A model generated the notes under the pieces. That model made no database searches, was not told the DNA's origin, and was given only the letters and a program-made list of their open reading frames with translations. From contig NZ_QKLU01000001.1 in NCBI RefSeq assembly GCF_003208655.1, positions 744,001 through 808,000 of the forward strand: a stretch of 64,000 nt of DNA. Reading direction: 5' to 3'. Source of the DNA: Pedobacter nutrimenti (GTDB lineage: Bacteria > Bacteroidota > Bacteroidia > Sphingobacteriales > Sphingobacteriaceae). The translations under genes and the position numbers were made by a program. Shown one piece after another: positions 32,334-40,500 of the stretch. The first letter of the stretch is position 1; each line of letters begins with the position of its first letter.

Positions 32334-34508
32334 CTAGCCGCCAACCGGCTCCAGCCCGGCAGGCATCTGGCATTGTTTTTTCCAAAAGCCATAATAATCC
32401 TGATGTCTTTCCATCAGTTCCAGATGTGTGCCCTGCTCTGAAACACGCCCCTGTTTTAGTACAATAATTTTGTCTGCTTTTTGTATGGTACTTAACCGGT
32501 GAGCAATCACAACAATTGTTTTTCCACGTTCTGAGAGATAATTAATCATTTTTTGTACATACTCCTCTGCACTGGAATCCAATGAAGAAGTCGCTTCATC
32601 CAAAAGCAATATTTCAGGTTTGCGGTATAATGCACGGGCAATGGCCAAACGCTGTTTTTGTCCACCGGAAAGAGAGACCCCATGTTCTCCCAACTGTGTA
32701 TTAAAACCATCTGGAAGCTCATGTATAAACTTTAAAATACCCAGACCTTCGCAAATTTCCATAATTTCCTTTTCATTAGGGAATGGATCTCCTAATGCAA
32801 TGTTTTCTGTTACATTTCCACTAAACAGATCAATATGCTGTGGAACCACCCCTACAAGTTTACGCAATGCAACATTCTGAATATCCTTTACAGGATATTT
32901 ACCTATAAAAATATGACCTTGTTGTATCGGGTATATATTTTGAAGCAATGCCATTAAGGTCGATTTTCCGGAGCCACTGTCGCCAACAATTGCTGTGGTT
33001 TGACCTTTTGCAATCCGCAGATTTAAATCATTAAAAACACTCACCCTAGTACCATAACGGAAACTCACGCCTTCAAAAGAAATGTCACCAAGTTCATCAG
33101 GACAGATACTGAGCCTCTGATTTTCAGACTCTGCTTCAAGGTCCATAATTTCGAAAAGCCTGTCGGCAGCAATTACCGCATCCTGAACTGCTTTGTTAAC
33201 ACCAACTAACGAAGCAGCAGGAGCGGTAAAATAGCCTACGAGCGTGTAAAATGAAAGTAGTTCACCGGCTGTAATTTGTCCTTTAAGCACATAGCCTGCG
33301 CCAACCCATAATACAATTATTGTAAATATCTTCGCAATGGTTTCTGTAGAAACCGCAGAAAAAACACTGTTCATGCCCGACTGATAAACGCTGCCCATTA
33401 ATTCCATAAAACGCTTCTCTGTTTTGGTATTGGCAAAATCCTCCAGACCAAACTTTTTAATCGTTGCCGCAGAACTGATGCTTTCTACCAGTTGCGATTC
33501 CAGTTCGGCGCTGTCCTCCATCAGTTTGCGCTGTACCCTTTTGTTCATTAAGTTCACCACATAATAAACCAGCACATACAAAGGAATCGTAACCATCAGC
33601 ATAACAGCCAGTTTCCAGTAATAACTAAACATCAAACCAAAAGAAAAAAGCACCACCAATATATTCACTGCCACACCGGTAGAAATATCATTAATAAAGG
33701 TCCTTATTTTTACTGCGTCGTTAATCCTGGAAACAATTTCCCCAATCCTCATGGTATCAAAAAACTGCTGGGGCAATTTCATCAAATGCTTATAGTACCC
33801 CAGAATAAGACTTTTATCAATTTTTTGCCCGGTACGTAAAGTAAAAACGGTTCTCAATGAGCCAATAAGGACCTGTAAACCCAATAAAGCAAACATTCCC
33901 AGACTAAGCACATTCAACAATTGGGGGTTATGATCTTTTAAAACCTGGTCAACTATTTTCTGTACATAAATGGCCGTAGAGAGGCCAAGCACCGTATATA
34001 AAATTGCAGCCAGCAAAACCTGCAGCATAACAGATTTATGCGGATGTATTAATTTTACAAAACGTTTGACCGTGCTGGTCGTTGTATCTTCAGGTTTAAA
34101 GGTGTCGTCCGGAGATAGAATGACCAGCACTCCATCCCATTCCTTTTTAAACTCCTGATGAGCTTTTTTAATCATTTTTCCTTCAGCAGGATCCATTAGC
34201 TCTACATAAGCTCCATGTACCTGATAAATAACCACATAATGATGCAAAACCTCTTTTACAATTAAATGAGCTATTGCAGGCATAGGTACCGTACGCAGAT
34301 CATCAAAATTGGCATAAACCCCCTTAGCCTGAAAACCCATTTTCTTTGCAGCTTCGGTGAGCCCAAGAATATTCGTCCCCTTTTTATCTGTACCCGCACA
34401 TTGCCTGATTTTGGCGACCGGCCATTTCAGGTTATAATGTGCGGCCACACTGGCAAGACATGCTGCCCCGCAATCTGTGACGTCCCTTTGTTTAACATTT
34501 GTTTTCAT
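32334..34508 (-). CDS. C39-peptidase ABC exporter for double-glycine leader peptides
   Basis: Three-domain exporter that cuts the leader of a peptide after Gly-Gly and transports it across the inner membrane. The N-terminal C39 peptidase (residues 1-135) has the catalytic Cys13 in VTDCGAACLAS, His90 in LHHYVVIY and Asp106 in LMDPAEG. Six membrane segments span about 155-440. The ATPase has Walker A GDSGSGKST near 508-516, signature LSGGQKQRLAIARAL near 611, Walker B ILLLDEAT and the H-loop IAHRLS. Length 724 residues is usual. No HlyD accessory gene is adjacent. The best local substrate is the double-glycine peptide at 36447-36599. Confidence 0.94.
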   Translation of the reverse strand: MKTNVKQRDVTDCGAACLASVAAHYNLKWPVAKIRQCAGTDKKGTNILGLTEAAKKMGFQAKGVYANFDDLRTVPMPAIAHLIVKEVLHHYVVIYQVHGAYVELMDPAEGKMIKKAHQEFKKEWDGVLVILSPDDTFKPEDTTTSTVKRFVKLIHPHKSVMLQVLLAAILYTVLGLSTAIYVQKIVDQVLKDHNPQLLNVLSLGMFALLGLQVLIGSLRTVFTLRTGQKIDKSLILGYYKHLMKLPQQFFDTMRIGEIVSRINDAVKIRTFINDISTGVAVNILVVLFSFGLMFSYYWKLAVMLMVTIPLYVLVYYVVNLMNKRVQRKLMEDSAELESQLVESISSAATIKKFGLEDFANTKTEKRFMELMGSVYQSGMNSVFSAVSTETIAKIFTIIVLWVGAGYVLKGQITAGELLSFYTLVGYFTAPAASLVGVNKAVQDAVIAADRLFEIMDLEAESENQRLSICPDELGDISFEGVSFRYGTRVSVFNDLNLRIAKGQTTAIVGDSGSGKSTLMALLQNIYPIQQGHIFIGKYPVKDIQNVALRKLVGVVPQHIDLFSGNVTENIALGDPFPNEKEIMEICEGLGILKFIHELPDGFNTQLGEHGVSLSGGQKQRLAIARALYRKPEILLLDEATSSLDSSAEEYVQKMINYLSERGKTIVVIAHRLSTIQKADKIIVLKQGRVSEQGTHLELMERHQDYYGFWKKQCQMPAGLEPVGG

Positions 34509-34526: not shown

Positions 34527-34727
34527 TTAAGCTTCCAATAGATACTTATTTCTTACAGGTAGTGTAGAGTCATTTTTTAAAAGCACAGAAAAGACACCAC
34601 TCCCCCGTACACCTAGGTGTACGGGTATAAAAGGGAGTGACTCGAGAGCAATAACAACAAACAACCAAACGAACACAACCGTGTTATGATTCCAGGTTAC
34701 TATGGGGTTTACTTTAACCATTATCAT
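34527..34727 (-). CDS. Possible leader ORF upstream of C39 exporter
   Basis: A 66-residue frame beginning with ATG 17 bases after the predicted transcription start and ending 18 bp before the exporter start. It has one hydrophobic stretch (TVVFVWLFVVIALESL) but no double-glycine leader. A 22-bp perfect palindrome lies inside it, which argues for a non-coding or attenuator role. Coding status is uncertain. Confidence 0.25.
   Translation of the reverse strand: MIMVKVNPIVTWNHNTVVFVWLFVVIALESLPFIPVHLGVRGSGVFSVLLKNDSTLPVRNKYLLEA
34598..34639 (-). promoter_or_regulatory. Long palindromic hairpin in exporter leader
   Basis: Outer arms CACTCCC and GGGAGTG enclose CCGTACACCT/AGGTGTACGG; the inner part with one more base pair each side is a perfect 22-bp palindrome, and an 8-base bulge GTATAAAA lies on one side. 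It sits about 90 bp upstream of the exporter start within its leader and could be a regulator site or an RNA hairpin. There is only a weak U-tract on the minus strand. Confidence 0.5.
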
Positions 34728-34750: not shown

Positions 34751-34798
34751 CAAAGCTGTGAGGATTTAAGGGGATGCACAACAACCTGTGGTTGTATT
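34751..34798 (-). promoter_or_regulatory. Operator-promoter of the C39 exporter
   Basis: ACAACAACCTGTGGTTGTATT-type element at 34778-34798 (inverted repeat ACAACC-TGT-GGTTGT). On the minus strand GGTTGTTG provides a -33 TTG, then 20 bp, then CAGCTTTG (34751-34758), close to the -7 consensus. The same element with the same spacing occurs before the double-glycine peptide at 36645-36692. Confidence 0.6.
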
Positions 34799-34865
34799 TC
34801 AAAATAGTATGCGGCTAGTAAAGTGAATGTACATAAGTACAGAAAGATGAGGTGCACAAAAAAAA

Positions 34866-34893
34866 TTGGCTACAAATAATAATTTATAGCCAA
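34866..34893 (-). terminator. Terminator after methyltransferase-like gene
   Basis: TTGGCTA and TAGCCAA arms, with an inner AAAT/ATTT pairing, followed on the minus strand by about nine T. It ends the transcript of the 34958-35635 gene. Confidence 0.8.
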
Positions 34894-34957
34894 CAAACAG
34901 CCCGTACAAAATCAGGCTTCAACGTACCTGCCAAGGTAAAGTATATAGGTTAAGGTC

Positions 34958-35635
34958 TTATTTTATTCCCCCTCTTGGCACAACAGGCTGATTTTCTTTG
35001 GGTTTAAAATTAAAATCTTTAAAAAACAAAGAAGTTGTCCAGGAATAAAAATTTACAGGCCCGACTCCATGGAAATCAATTTGTATAAACCCCCGTTCTC
35101 TAAGGCTTTTACACACCAAAGGATCCCTTTCGGAATTGTCATAAATAATCATTCCACCCTCATTTAAATAGGCTGGGGCAAACGCAGCACATTCTTCTCT
35201 TACAATTCCGTCAATGATGATCACATCATATTTTTTATCCGAAACCTTAATACGGTTTGCATATTCATCTTTTGCGGCCAGAATCAGGTTCTGATTGCTG
35301 CTTAGGCGGGTAAGGCCTATACTGTACCATTCTTCGTTGGCTTCTATAGAAGTAATCGATTTCACTCTTTTAGAGAAAAAAACAGAAGAATTACCTGAAC
35401 CCCACTCAAAAAAAGTTTTGTCTGAGAAATCAAGCTGACTTAGATATTCAATAGCCGGATAGGTAAACCAAGGAAGTTCGGTTCCATCTGCGTCCATCGG
35501 TTTGTGCAGTTGCGCTGATCTGAGGTGTCCAAAATGTTTATTAAAAATATTAACCAGCGGATTTTCTGGTAAAAAAGGTGTGATTTTGAAATAAGTATTT
35601 CTAAAGAATTTTCTGAGACTGGATTTATTTCCCAT
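34958..35635 (-). CDS. Class I SAM-dependent methyltransferase-like protein
   Basis: A 225-residue soluble protein with a Rossmann-like SAM fold: motif I FFEWGSGNSSVFF at about 75-87, the acidic second strand SITSIEANEEWY at about 93-104, YDVIIIDGIVREE at about 135, and GGMIIYDNSERD as the next strand. No transfer target can be recognised. It is between the exporter and the rhomboid gene but has its own terminator, so a link with the peptide locus is only positional. Confidence 0.75.
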   Translation of the reverse strand: MGNKSSLRKFFRNTYFKITPFLPENPLVNIFNKHFGHLRSAQLHKPMDADGTELPWFTYPAIEYLSQLDFSDKTFFEWGSGNSSVFFSKRVKSITSIEANEEWYSIGLTRLSSNQNLILAAKDEYANRIKVSDKKYDVIIIDGIVREECAAFAPAYLNEGGMIIYDNSERDPLVCKSLRERGFIQIDFHGVGPVNFYSWTTSLFFKDFNFKPKENQPVVPRGGIK

Positions 35636-35779
35636 TAGGAATATGATGTAGGTTGGCTCTAAGCAATTTTGTTGGCAAAGGATAGAAAAATATTTAACAG
35701 ATACAAATGAAGAGAAAAGAAAATGGCTACATTTCCTTCAAAAAGGTAATTAGAAAAAAAGTTTCGTAATTTTAACCCA

Positions 35780-36433
35780 ATGTTTCCATCATTTTTCCAG
35801 ATGCCCTTCACTTACGTGATCACCATCTCCATTTTTATTGTCAGTATAATAGGGTTCTATCATAAACCTTTGTATCATGCACTTCTTTTTCACCCTTATG
35901 AGGTTTTCCGGGGAAAAAGAATCCATACCCTTTTAACCTCTGCTTTTGTACACAAAGGATGGAAACATTTACTGATCAATCTGTATATCTTTTACATTAT
36001 GGCTAAAGATGTAGAAACTTTAATTCTCAATGAAAGTTACAGCCCTGTACAAATAAAAATAATCTGGTTGTTTATATTTTTGTTTTCTGCTGTTTTGGGT
36101 AACCTCATTACCGGATGGCTACAAAAAGATAATATAAATTATACAAGCGTAGGTGCTTCAGGGATTACTTTTTCCTTTACTATTTTTGCCATGCTTTATT
36201 TTCCGCTTGACCATTCCAACAAACCATATAAGTTTTTACCGCTTTACTACGGTTACGACTATACTTTTGCCATTTTGGTCATTTGTATAGCAATGTTTTT
36301 AATTTATAGAAAAAAATCAAAAAGTAATCATAAAATTCATTTAACAGGGGCCCTTATTGGTTTGGCATTGGCGATTTTGTTCAGGCCGGTCTTAGTCACA
36401 GAAATTATTTACCACCTAAAATCCAGGTGGTAA
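35780..36433 (+). CDS. Rhomboid-family intramembrane serine protease
   Basis: Six-helix membrane protease cutting transmembrane segments. The catalytic Ser127 is in VGASGIT and His187 in HLTGALIGLAL; His63 and Asn67 (HLLINLY) form the oxyanion region. Length 217 residues is the minimal bacterial rhomboid core. It converges on the double-glycine peptide gene with a 13-bp gap and a shared hairpin. Rhomboids are rarely tied to such peptides, so a functional link is speculative. Confidence 0.9.
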   Translation: MFPSFFQMPFTYVITISIFIVSIIGFYHKPLYHALLFHPYEVFRGKRIHTLLTSAFVHKGWKHLLINLYIFYIMAKDVETLILNESYSPVQIKIIWLFIFLFSAVLGNLITGWLQKDNINYTSVGASGITFSFTIFAMLYFPLDHSNKPYKFLPLYYGYDYTFAILVICIAMFLIYRKKSKSNHKIHLTGALIGLALAILFRPVLVTEIIYHLKSRW

Positions 36434-36440
36434 ATAATTT
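36402..36440. terminator. Bidirectional terminator between rhomboid and peptide gene
   Basis: Perfect 16-bp stem AAATTATTTACCACCT and complement with a 7-base loop, spanning the rhomboid stop codon. T-rich sequence follows on the plus strand, and the convergent peptide gene ends seven bases away. Confidence 0.8.
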
Positions 36441-36446
36441 ATATTT

Positions 36447-36599
36447 TTATTTTCCACAGCCTAACCAGCCTGCAATTGCCCCGGCAACGCCTCCAATTAA
36501 TCCGCCAATAATTTCGGCAGCGGTATCCATGCTGTCTCTTCCTTTTCCTGTTTCTCCTCCGTTAATTTCAACAACTTCTGTTTCGGTTAATTCTCTCAT
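36447..36599 (-). CDS. Double-glycine leader peptide, candidate bacteriocin-like secreted peptide
   Basis: A 50-residue peptide. Residues 1-15, MRELTETEVVEINGG, are a typical class II bacteriocin leader with hydrophobic positions before Gly-Gly. The predicted 35-residue mature part starts ETGKGRDSMD and ends in a glycine-zipper helix GGLIGGVAGAIAGWLGCGK with one cysteine. Such cores insert in membranes or act as signals. The ATG at 36599 was chosen because it starts the leader; an in-frame start upstream adds an improbable tail. It is divergent from an XRE regulator and shares a promoter element with the C39 exporter 2 kb away. No separate immunity gene is identified. Confidence 0.8.
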   Translation of the reverse strand: MRELTETEVVEINGGETGKGRDSMDTAAEIIGGLIGGVAGAIAGWLGCGK

Positions 36600-36644
36600 T
36601 TTATATAGTTTTAGATTGTTTCTTCTGCCCATTCAGAATTAAAT

Positions 36645-36729
36645 CAAATCTCATAACTAGCTAATAATCAGACAACAACCAGTAGTTGTATTGTATAACT
36701 TGTAGTTGTAAAAAAAAACAATTAATTTG
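36645..36729. promoter_or_regulatory. Divergent operator-promoter of GG peptide and XRE regulator
   Basis: Element at 36672-36692 matches the exporter element at 34778-34798 in 19 of 21 bases. For the peptide (minus strand): GGTTGTTG, 20-bp spacer, GAGATTTG (36645-36652). For the regulator (plus strand): TTG at 36700-36702, 19 bp, TTAATTTG at 36722-36729. GTAGTTGTA occurs twice, at 36682 and 36702, exactly 20 bp apart, so a regulator could bind two turns on one face. Confidence 0.6.
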
Positions 36730-36753: not shown

Positions 36754-37074
36754 ATGATTGGTGAAAAGATACGTGAGAGAAGAGAACACAAAAAGATTTC
36801 TCAATATGCCGTGGCTTACGCTATAGGCATGTCCCAGGCTGCTTATTCTAAGATTGAGCGTGGGGAAACTGAGGTCAAAGTAAGTCATCTGTATTCTATA
36901 GCTGCATTTCTTGGAACATCGGTATATGAACTGCTGCCAGAGGCTATGGCCAGCAGTACTTTTGATGGTGAAGAATATCTTTTAAAACCCCTGGTGGTCA
37001 AATTAAAAACCCTTTGGTTTACCTGGAAAGTGCGCAGGAGAATCAAAAAAATGCCTAAAACACTAGAATCCTGA
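36754..37074 (+). CDS. XRE-family helix-turn-helix regulator
   Basis: A 106-residue protein with an HTH_3 domain at about 1-62 (IGEKIRERREHKKISQYAVAYAIGMSQAAYSKIERGETEVKVSHLYSIAAFLGTS) and a basic C-terminal tail (WKVRRRIKKMPKTLES). Divergent from the double-glycine peptide gene by 154 bp, with repeats in the shared promoter, and the repeats also occur upstream of the exporter. It is the best candidate for the regulator that binds them and probably controls itself. Confidence 0.9.
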   Translation: MIGEKIRERREHKKISQYAVAYAIGMSQAAYSKIERGETEVKVSHLYSIAAFLGTSVYELLPEAMASSTFDGEEYLLKPLVVKLKTLWFTWKVRRRIKKMPKTLES

Positions 37075-37176: not shown

Positions 37177-37467
37177 TCACAATCTTGTCGGAAATTTAGA
37201 TTGAAGCCATTTCATCAGTTCATCGGTCGCTTTTTTTGCAGTTTCCAAAGCAACTACATTTTCTTTAGGTACTTGATCGGTTTCCAATTCTTCTTCAATT
37301 TCATCTTCGTAGTCACCCGACAACCTTAACATCGCATCATTTACAAATAAGGTGATCAAATCATTGTGTAATGCAGCTGTTCCATTACTTTGTTCCTTTT
37401 CATTTTTAAATAGTCCAAGCCATTCACTTGTGGGCACTGCCGGGTCAATATCTTCCATTAGGTTCAT
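37177..37467 (-). CDS. Small acidic hypothetical protein
   Basis: A 96-residue soluble protein, strongly acidic in the middle (DYEDEIEEELETDQVPKENV), with a helical C-terminus (ALETAKKATDELMKWLQSKF). No signal peptide or membrane segment. It starts 47 bp after the 37515-37739 gene and is closed by a terminator, so both are one transcript. No family recognised. Confidence 0.6.
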   Translation of the reverse strand: MNLMEDIDPAVPTSEWLGLFKNEKEQSNGTAALHNDLITLFVNDAMLRLSGDYEDEIEEELETDQVPKENVVALETAKKATDELMKWLQSKFPTRL

Positions 37468-37514: not shown

Positions 37515-37739
37515 TTAAAAACAGCCCCCTAAGGTACCCGGGAGTACCGGAAAAGGGAGCTGCTGATCCATGAGAGCGGCACTAATGCCGATTTCTTTAT
37601 AAAAAGGAACCAAACAATTACCGGCACCCAAAAAGACGGTGTCCCGATTTCCTCTTGTTGCACCCCCACCTATGGGAAGAGAAGTTCTTTTAACATAAGT
37701 CTTTAGGGTTCCGGTAGTGTTTTTATCTGATTCCAGCAT
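37515..37739 (-). CDS. Small glycine-rich hypothetical peptide
   Basis: A 74-residue protein with an ATG start at 37739. It is rich in Gly, Thr and Pro, with VKRTSLPIGGGATRG in the middle and the unusual ending LPGTLGGCF. No classical signal peptide or double-glycine leader; the GGG at 24-26 could still be a processing site. Divergent from the operon starting at 37945. Precursor-peptide or secreted-protein roles are guesses. Confidence 0.5.
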   Translation of the reverse strand: MLESDKNTTGTLKTYVKRTSLPIGGGATRGNRDTVFLGAGNCLVPFYKEIGISAALMDQQLPFPVLPGTLGGCF

Positions 37740-39819: not shown

Positions 39820-40500
39820 GTGGCTCAAAATGGTATACATATCGGTCTGGTAGAAGACCAGTTTATTTTCAGGGAAGGAATGAAATCCCTGATTCAAAAC
39901 TGGCCAAACATGTCAGTAATCTTTGAATCCGGCGACGGTCATTCGGTTATTGAAAAACTAAAACAGACTTCCTTCCGTCCCGATGTCCTTTTGATCGATT
40001 TTTCACTTCCACCTTTAGGGGAGCAGGAATTTAATGGATTGGACGTGATCCAGGCGGTAACCAATCATTTTCCAGATATTAAAATATTAATGCTTTCTAT
40101 TCATGATGATGAAAATTTTATAGCTAAGGTAATTGAGTACGGTGCCCACGGACATCTGGTTAAAGAAAGTGATCCCGACGATGTCCGAAAAGCAATTCAT
40201 GCTGTTCATGAAAAGGGTTCTTATATTAATGAAAAAACCCTTCGTGCCATACAACACAATATGGGTAAAAAAATAAAACCCAACCAGCCCTATGCCCAGC
40301 ATACCAAATTGACCAAAAGAGAGCAACAAATTGTAGAGCTCATTTGTCTACAGCACACTACAGAAGAAATCGCAGAAAAACTATTTATTAGTACCAAAAC
40401 AGTCAATGGACACCGCATCAATCTTTTGCAAAAAACAAACTCAAGAAATACTGCAGGATTAGTGATCTATGCCGTAAAAAATCAATTGGTTAGCGTCTAA
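39820..40500 (+). CDS. NarL/FixJ-type response regulator
   Basis: Receiver domain (IGLVEDQFIFREGMKSL, phospho-acceptor Asp in VLLIDFSLPP, switch Ser in ILMLSIHDDENF, Lys in HLVKESDPDD) and C-terminal LuxR HTH (LTKREQQIVELICLQHTTEEIAEKLFISTKTVNGHRINL). The start is a GTG at 39820; no ATG precedes the receiver core. It is the partner of the kinase just upstream and lies 10 bp from a PAP2 gene, which it may control. Confidence 0.93.
   Translation: MAQNGIHIGLVEDQFIFREGMKSLIQNWPNMSVIFESGDGHSVIEKLKQTSFRPDVLLIDFSLPPLGEQEFNGLDVIQAVTNHFPDIKILMLSIHDDENFIAKVIEYGAHGHLVKESDPDDVRKAIHAVHEKGSYINEKTLRAIQHNMGKKIKPNQPYAQHTKLTKREQQIVELICLQHTTEEIAEKLFISTKTVNGHRINLLQKTNSRNTAGLVIYAVKNQLVSV

Follow-up and report, generated by a model that had tools for sequence, protein, structure and literature searches.

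A palindromic element shared by a double-glycine peptide gene, its likely exporter and an XRE regulator gene in Pedobacter nutrimenti

The window analyzed here is a stretch of 64,000 nucleotides from Pedobacter nutrimenti (RefSeq assembly GCF_003208655.1, contig NZ_QKLU01000001.1, positions 744,001 to 808,000 of the forward strand). In this window, genes for a short double-glycine (GG) peptide, a C39 peptidase ABC exporter and a small XRE-type regulator are preceded by copies of one palindromic element, which we call the operator. The initial annotation had noticed the repeated element and had suggested a single regulon in which an XRE protein controls the peptide, the exporter and itself. Both the observation and the idea hold, and they are stronger than was claimed.

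The genes and their shared palindrome

The GG peptide has 50 amino acids (aa), reads MRELTETEVVEINGG followed by ETGKGRDSMDTAAEIIGGLIGGVAGAIAGWLGCGK, and is encoded on the minus strand (36447..36599). Its start was picked by orthologue alignment; an alternative upstream ATG at 36632 would lengthen it by 11 aa. An alignment of 22 peptides showed the double-glycine leader, with E8 and G15 nearly invariant; the predicted mature product has 35 residues. The exporter (724 aa; 32334..34508, minus strand) is predicted to cleave such leaders and export the peptides. It has the Pfam domains Peptidase_C39 (122 bits), ABC_membrane and ABC_tran, scores 528.1 with TIGR01193 (cut-off 523.85), and is the single C39 protein found in the genome. 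The XRE regulator (106 aa; 36754..37074, plus strand) consists of a Cro/CI-type helix-turn-helix (HTH) domain (residues 2-60), a linker and a C-terminal helix (78-98); its Pfam HTH_3 score is 53.9 bits, and the curated cut-off is 23.

The element occurs before the exporter as ACAACAACC-TGTG-GTTGTATT (34778-34798) and before the peptide as ACAACAACC-AGTA-GTTGTATT (36672-36692), with 19 of the 21 bases identical. These positions and this identity had been given correctly, while the middle, described as three variable bases, actually has four, two of which differ. It had been overlooked that the core of the element is an inverted repeat, ACAACYNNNRGTTGT. The exporter operator (34781..34795) is a perfect palindrome, ACAACC-TGT-GGTTGT, and the peptide operator (36675..36689) is ACAACC-AGT-AGTTGT; no strand is assigned to any operator copy. 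The initial annotation was also right that GTAGTTGTA recurs 20 bp apart upstream of the XRE gene. This recurrence is a further operator copy (XRE operator, 36695..36709; ATAACT-TGT-AGTTGT, one mismatch) lying exactly 20 bp from the peptide operator, in register, so that the two make up a tandem pair.

Our results showed that the shared element is genuine. Allowing three mismatches, the 21-mer was found at only two places in the window; shuffled sequences had a mean of 0.15, and none of 100 shuffles reached two. In the 5.7-Mb genome there are three exact copies of ACAACYNNNRGTTGT, two at the locus and one within an MgtC-like coding frame. Core copies with one mismatch numbered 48 per strand genome-wide and 52 for the reversed control. 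Because this count is at the control level, single degenerate copies elsewhere in the genome are meaningless and we do not claim a wider regulon in this genome.

Conservation and promoter geometry

A search with the XRE protein within the same genus revealed four close orthologues, 56-66% identical to it, and all four genes have an operator about 50-65 bp upstream. Scanning species genomes yielded 73 loci, of which the nearest belong to Pedobacter, Olivibacter, Sphingobacterium, Daejeonella, Nubsella, Mucilaginibacter and Hufsiella. In these relatives an operator was called at one mismatch or less, and for XRE genes within the 300 bp upstream. By this measure the regulator's own promoter had a palindromic operator in 22 of the 26 Sphingobacteriaceae clade loci, whereas among 48 control XRE genes a single one had it; random 300-bp stretches contained one in 15 of 1233 cases. 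The operator also preceded 13 of the 14 clade operons that encode an HlyD-type periplasmic adaptor (MFP) and a C39 exporter, compared with none of seven outgroup MFP genes. The usual order was C39 exporter and MFP (minus strand), operator, rhomboid protease gene (plus), short GG peptide (minus), tandem operators and XRE gene (plus). The operator, the gene set and the spacing recur in about twenty related species. Homologous loci thus have the element, and its place at XRE genes, at MFP-C39 operons and before the XRE-adjacent GG peptide, together with an invariant distance to the -7 element, supports one regulon of peptide, exporter and XRE gene.

An exact search of 400 genomes of the family with a 22-bp form of the element returned four sites in three genomes: two at the P. 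xixiisoli XRE locus, the one in the window, and one at a locus (L121) with the same exporter-rhomboid-XRE arrangement as the window. The full operator-promoter pattern was concentrated in the genus Sphingobacterium (g16), with few control matches. There it precedes the XRE-adjacent peptide, MFP-C39-TolC operons, small membrane peptides, CPBP-type proteins and other small frames. Isolated matches to the long pattern also turned up in genus g14 and in other Pedobacter; these look fortuitous. At four Sphingobacterium sites (L174:9747 and 6529, L176:9803, L177:18522), operator-promoters stand before 43-aa single-helix peptides ending in TRNK, whose next genes are CPBP-type or CarboxypepD_reg-like; these are unannotated members of the Sphingobacterium regulon.

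On the minus strand, as had been described, GGTTGTTG is followed after exactly 20 bp by a -7 element at both copies. This is CAGCTTTG for the exporter (34751..34758; predicted transcription start about 34746, by the 4-5 nt rule of PMC6847099) and GAGATTTG for the peptide (36645..36652; predicted start about 36640). On the plus strand a -7-like element of the XRE gene, TTAATTTG (36722..36729; predicted start about 36734), lies 20 nt after the XRE operator. Across the clade, TTTG was found exactly 30 nt past the palindrome, in gene orientation, in 33 of 137 site-orientations, and at any other distance in five at most. Among 63 distinct operator-promoters, which include closely related species and are not 63 independent events, the -11 base is A in 95%; this base was not selected for, and the -7 box is therefore real. 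The -12 base is T in just 22% of the 63, and 9 have TTG at the usual 20-bp spacing. Promoters of Flavobacterium johnsoniae hardly ever depart from T-12 and A-11, and their transcription starts 4-5 nt after G-5 (PMC6847099). Applying this start rule to the 30-nt distance puts the palindrome centre at about -42 for the peptide as well as for the exporter. On the XRE side, 20 nt separate the end of the copy from TTTG in Pedobacter (centre about -32), and 14 nt where TTTG was seen elsewhere (L055). On this predicted geometry, the copy covers the XRE gene's own promoter in the position of a repressor.

Proposed control and its alternatives

We propose, with a probability of roughly 0.6, that the XRE protein represses its own gene and most likely activates the peptide and exporter promoters through the palindrome. 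The stand-alone 106-aa protein would be the regulator of a peptide-export regulon, its dimer binding ACAACYNNNRGTTGT. At its own promoter the dimer would sit over the -33/spacer region and repress; centred at about -42 of the peptide and exporter promoters, it would most likely activate both, each having a weak -33 next to the operator and a -7 box whose -12 base is poor. Lambda CI at OR2 and restriction-modification controller proteins at their distal site activate in a comparable way. The products under control would be the GG peptide and the C39 exporter, with the MFP and a TolC partner in relatives. The rhomboid is probably regulated too, via a divergent operator that it shares in most relatives. 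The operator, the fixed geometry and the conserved gene set come from sequence comparison; from locus linkage we infer that the XRE protein is the binder, and the sign of control is likewise deduced. Lambda CI and class II activators act from a centre near -42 beside weak core boxes, and the same position beside weak core boxes here is the reason for proposing an activator that represses its own gene. Over 124 background promoters the -33 to -7 spacing has a weak peak at 19-20 bp, so the argument for activation leans mainly on the constant spacing and the poor -12 base.

The AlphaFold2 model of the XRE protein (mean predicted local distance difference test score 85) joins the HTH domain through a loose linker to a C-terminal helix predicted with confidence, and the nearest solved structures found by Foldseek are SinR, P22 c2 repressor and C.AhdI (1y7y). 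Nearly all members have a basic C-terminal helix region, and many an amphipathic one, which would make this region a candidate for sensing or oligomerisation. As to the input sensed, our guess is this amphipathic helix together with the exported peptide and the rhomboid.

Several points weigh against activation, or against the strength of the comparison. The fixed 30-nt distance could stem from the promoter itself, the TTG being in the operator arm. In Pedobacter the TTG that abuts the palindrome has a normal 20-bp spacing, which is compatible with repression, and a weak -33 box is in any case usual for this phylum (PMC6847099). Four of the 26 loci (L060, L068, L072, L077) were without a site at one mismatch or less, and the invariance of the recognition helix SQAAYSK is partly an artefact, since this motif served as the search word of the genome scan. 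The main rival is that the XRE protein is a plain repressor that blocks the -33 region of the peptide, the exporter and its own promoter until some signal lifts the block. We regard this as a serious possibility, though not the favored one: the -33 TTG lies within the operator arm or directly beside it, repression is the common role of small XRE proteins that have tandem operators (SinR and P22 c2 being the nearest folds), and the geometry of the XRE-side copy is that of a repressor. However, the constant distance from operator to -7, the poor -12 base and the absence of a 20-bp TTG in Sphingobacterium look activator-dependent.

Two other explanations take the operator away from the XRE protein. 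A histidine kinase and a response regulator are encoded about 2 kb downstream of the XRE gene, and a factor such as this LuxR-type response regulator (39820-40500) might bind the operator, with the XRE gene as merely another target. We consider this highly improbable: across the clade it is the XRE gene that consistently accompanies the operator, the genes next to them being variable, and the kinase genes have no operator copy in front of them. A chance resemblance of the two copies, or a dispersed repeat with no regulatory role, would agree with the genome-wide rate of one-mismatch copies, but it is hardly credible given that exact copies are almost unique, are conserved at matching places in many species and keep a fixed -7 register. 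A bolder reading is a pheromone circuit of Sphingobacteriaceae, in which a short exported GG peptide would be sensed through the rhomboid and the stand-alone XRE protein, with positive feedback on the peptide, the exporter and bacteriocin-like targets and with neither a histidine kinase nor a TPR receptor; this we hold to be doubtful.

Parts of this arrangement are found in known systems. CI-type repressors of lambda and P22 (P22 c2) and SinR share with it the small Cro/CI-type HTH, the short palindrome, tandem in-phase operators and the nearest folds. The protein described here differs in its build, 106 aa in which a linker leads to a single C-terminal helix, and in being tied to GG peptides and a C39 exporter and not to a prophage or biofilm locus. 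The restriction-modification controller C.AhdI is likewise a small XRE dimer with two adjacent operators, for which activation and autorepression have been proposed; besides the fold match to 1y7y, the XRE protein has a weak PADLOC Control_protein match. Unlike in C.AhdI-type systems, the targets are separately placed peptide and export genes. No restriction/methylase pair of that type, or other restriction-modification genes, came to notice next to the XRE gene, either in the window or in the two loci inspected over their whole length, although no systematic search was made.

In the ComCDE/Blp regulons of Gram-positive bacteria, a GG peptide, a C39 exporter and a regulator are also under common sites, and the mature peptides of Sphingobacterium are pheromone-like. 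There, a response regulator with its histidine kinase acts on direct repeats, whereas here an XRE protein, a palindrome and a rhomboid are involved. Quorum sensing of the ComCDE/Blp type was rejected, as no operator precedes the nearby kinase/regulator pair and the site-linked regulator is the XRE protein. Rgg/ComR proteins also have an XRE-type DNA-binding domain in peptide circuits; membership in this group (RRNPP) was discarded because the 106-aa protein, modelled as HTH, linker and one helix, has no TPR peptide-binding domain. Bacteroidetocins are GG peptides of Bacteroidota with a C39 exporter, but they are different peptides from a four-gene locus with a transmembrane protein and a thiol oxidoreductase, and the paper never uses the word "regulator" (PMC6671954).

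Systems in which a peptide and its exporter are under a small XRE protein are already known in outline. The open-licence literature searched yielded neither a regulator nor an operator described for Bacteroidota GG peptides; on that literature, the operator, the promoter geometry and the rhomboid as a partner appear undescribed in this phylum. The operator is defined, the promoter geometry is fixed, and the proposed regulator and the gene set recur in many environmental species that can be cultured, so the proposal is directly testable; the operator pattern can also be used for finding unannotated exported peptides.

Rhomboid, exporter region and peptide classes

The rhomboid intramembrane serine protease (35780..36433, plus strand; Pfam Rhomboid 60 bits) has a GxSG motif with Ser127 and a His187. 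It was present in 23 of the 26 clade loci and both residues were retained in all 23, so the protein is probably proteolytically active and its gene a member of the unit. In the window no operator is left upstream of it, and in relatives no clear -7 could be fixed for its promoter. Between the exporter operator and the rhomboid gene lies a methyltransferase-like gene (34958..35635, minus strand; weak Methyltransf_24) with no operator upstream and no counterpart in the orthologous interval of relatives. From this comparison it is a local insertion between operator and rhomboid, outside the conserved unit. The initial annotation had regarded the genes as split by a methyltransferase and a rhomboid gene; this is right for the former, while the latter belongs to the unit. 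Providencia AarA is also a bacterial rhomboid tied to the production of an extracellular signal; it acts on TatA, whereas here the rhomboid sits in a peptide-XRE locus. The locus suggests a function for a bacterial rhomboid protease, a group whose substrates are, as far as we are aware, mostly not known.

Beside the XRE gene are two small frames without an operator (37177-37467 and 37515-37739, both minus strand), the second with GTLGGCF as its glycine-rich tail.

The XRE-adjacent peptides of Sphingobacterium have about 20-26 residues after the leader, charged and then aromatic; those of Pedobacter are longer and glycine-rich. The window peptide was rejected as a class II bacteriocin (PF10439), its 22.2 bits being under the Pfam gathering score of 27.1. 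A second class of XRE-linked peptides (L066, L068, L069, L072, L077) has 55 aa, two cysteines and the ending GGxGAxIGxxxAAxGPxCLxxW. Its hosts are Daejeonella, Mucilaginibacter, Hufsiella and relatives, and in several of them the operator is degenerate or absent.

Between the exporter operator and the exporter is a 66-aa frame (34527..34727, minus strand), an N-terminal remnant of an MFP. It matched the intact MFP of one relative (L048) over query residues 20-73 (30% identity, E 0.07) and the MFP profile with 11.7 bits over 33 residues, and its place and order are those of intact MFP genes. A linked intact adaptor, as in type I secretion by MFP, ABC exporter and TolC, is thus missing from the window and present in relatives. 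On this comparison, the predicted exporter promoter survives here while the adaptor has been truncated. Within the remnant, at 34597-34637, there is a strong inverted repeat (CCGTACACCTAGGTGTACGG core, flanks CTCCC/GGGAG) that is unique in the genome. The leader with this hairpin folds moderately better than shuffles (z -2.6), and the repeat is possibly a deletion scar or an attenuator before the exporter.

Near the exporter genes of relatives, and after a TolC-like gene in several loci, we observed a winged-helix-like protein of 104-110 aa (L048:4271, L056:4105 and L063:4268 on the minus strand, L166:5917 on the plus strand, and homologues); the window has none. Its C-terminus carries a conserved double-glycine-like motif (..QIRHISAG.., ..INAG.., ..ISGG..) followed by a hydrophobic tail of 10-16 residues. 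It is thus a protein of DNA-binding type with a leader-like cleavage motif near its C-terminus.
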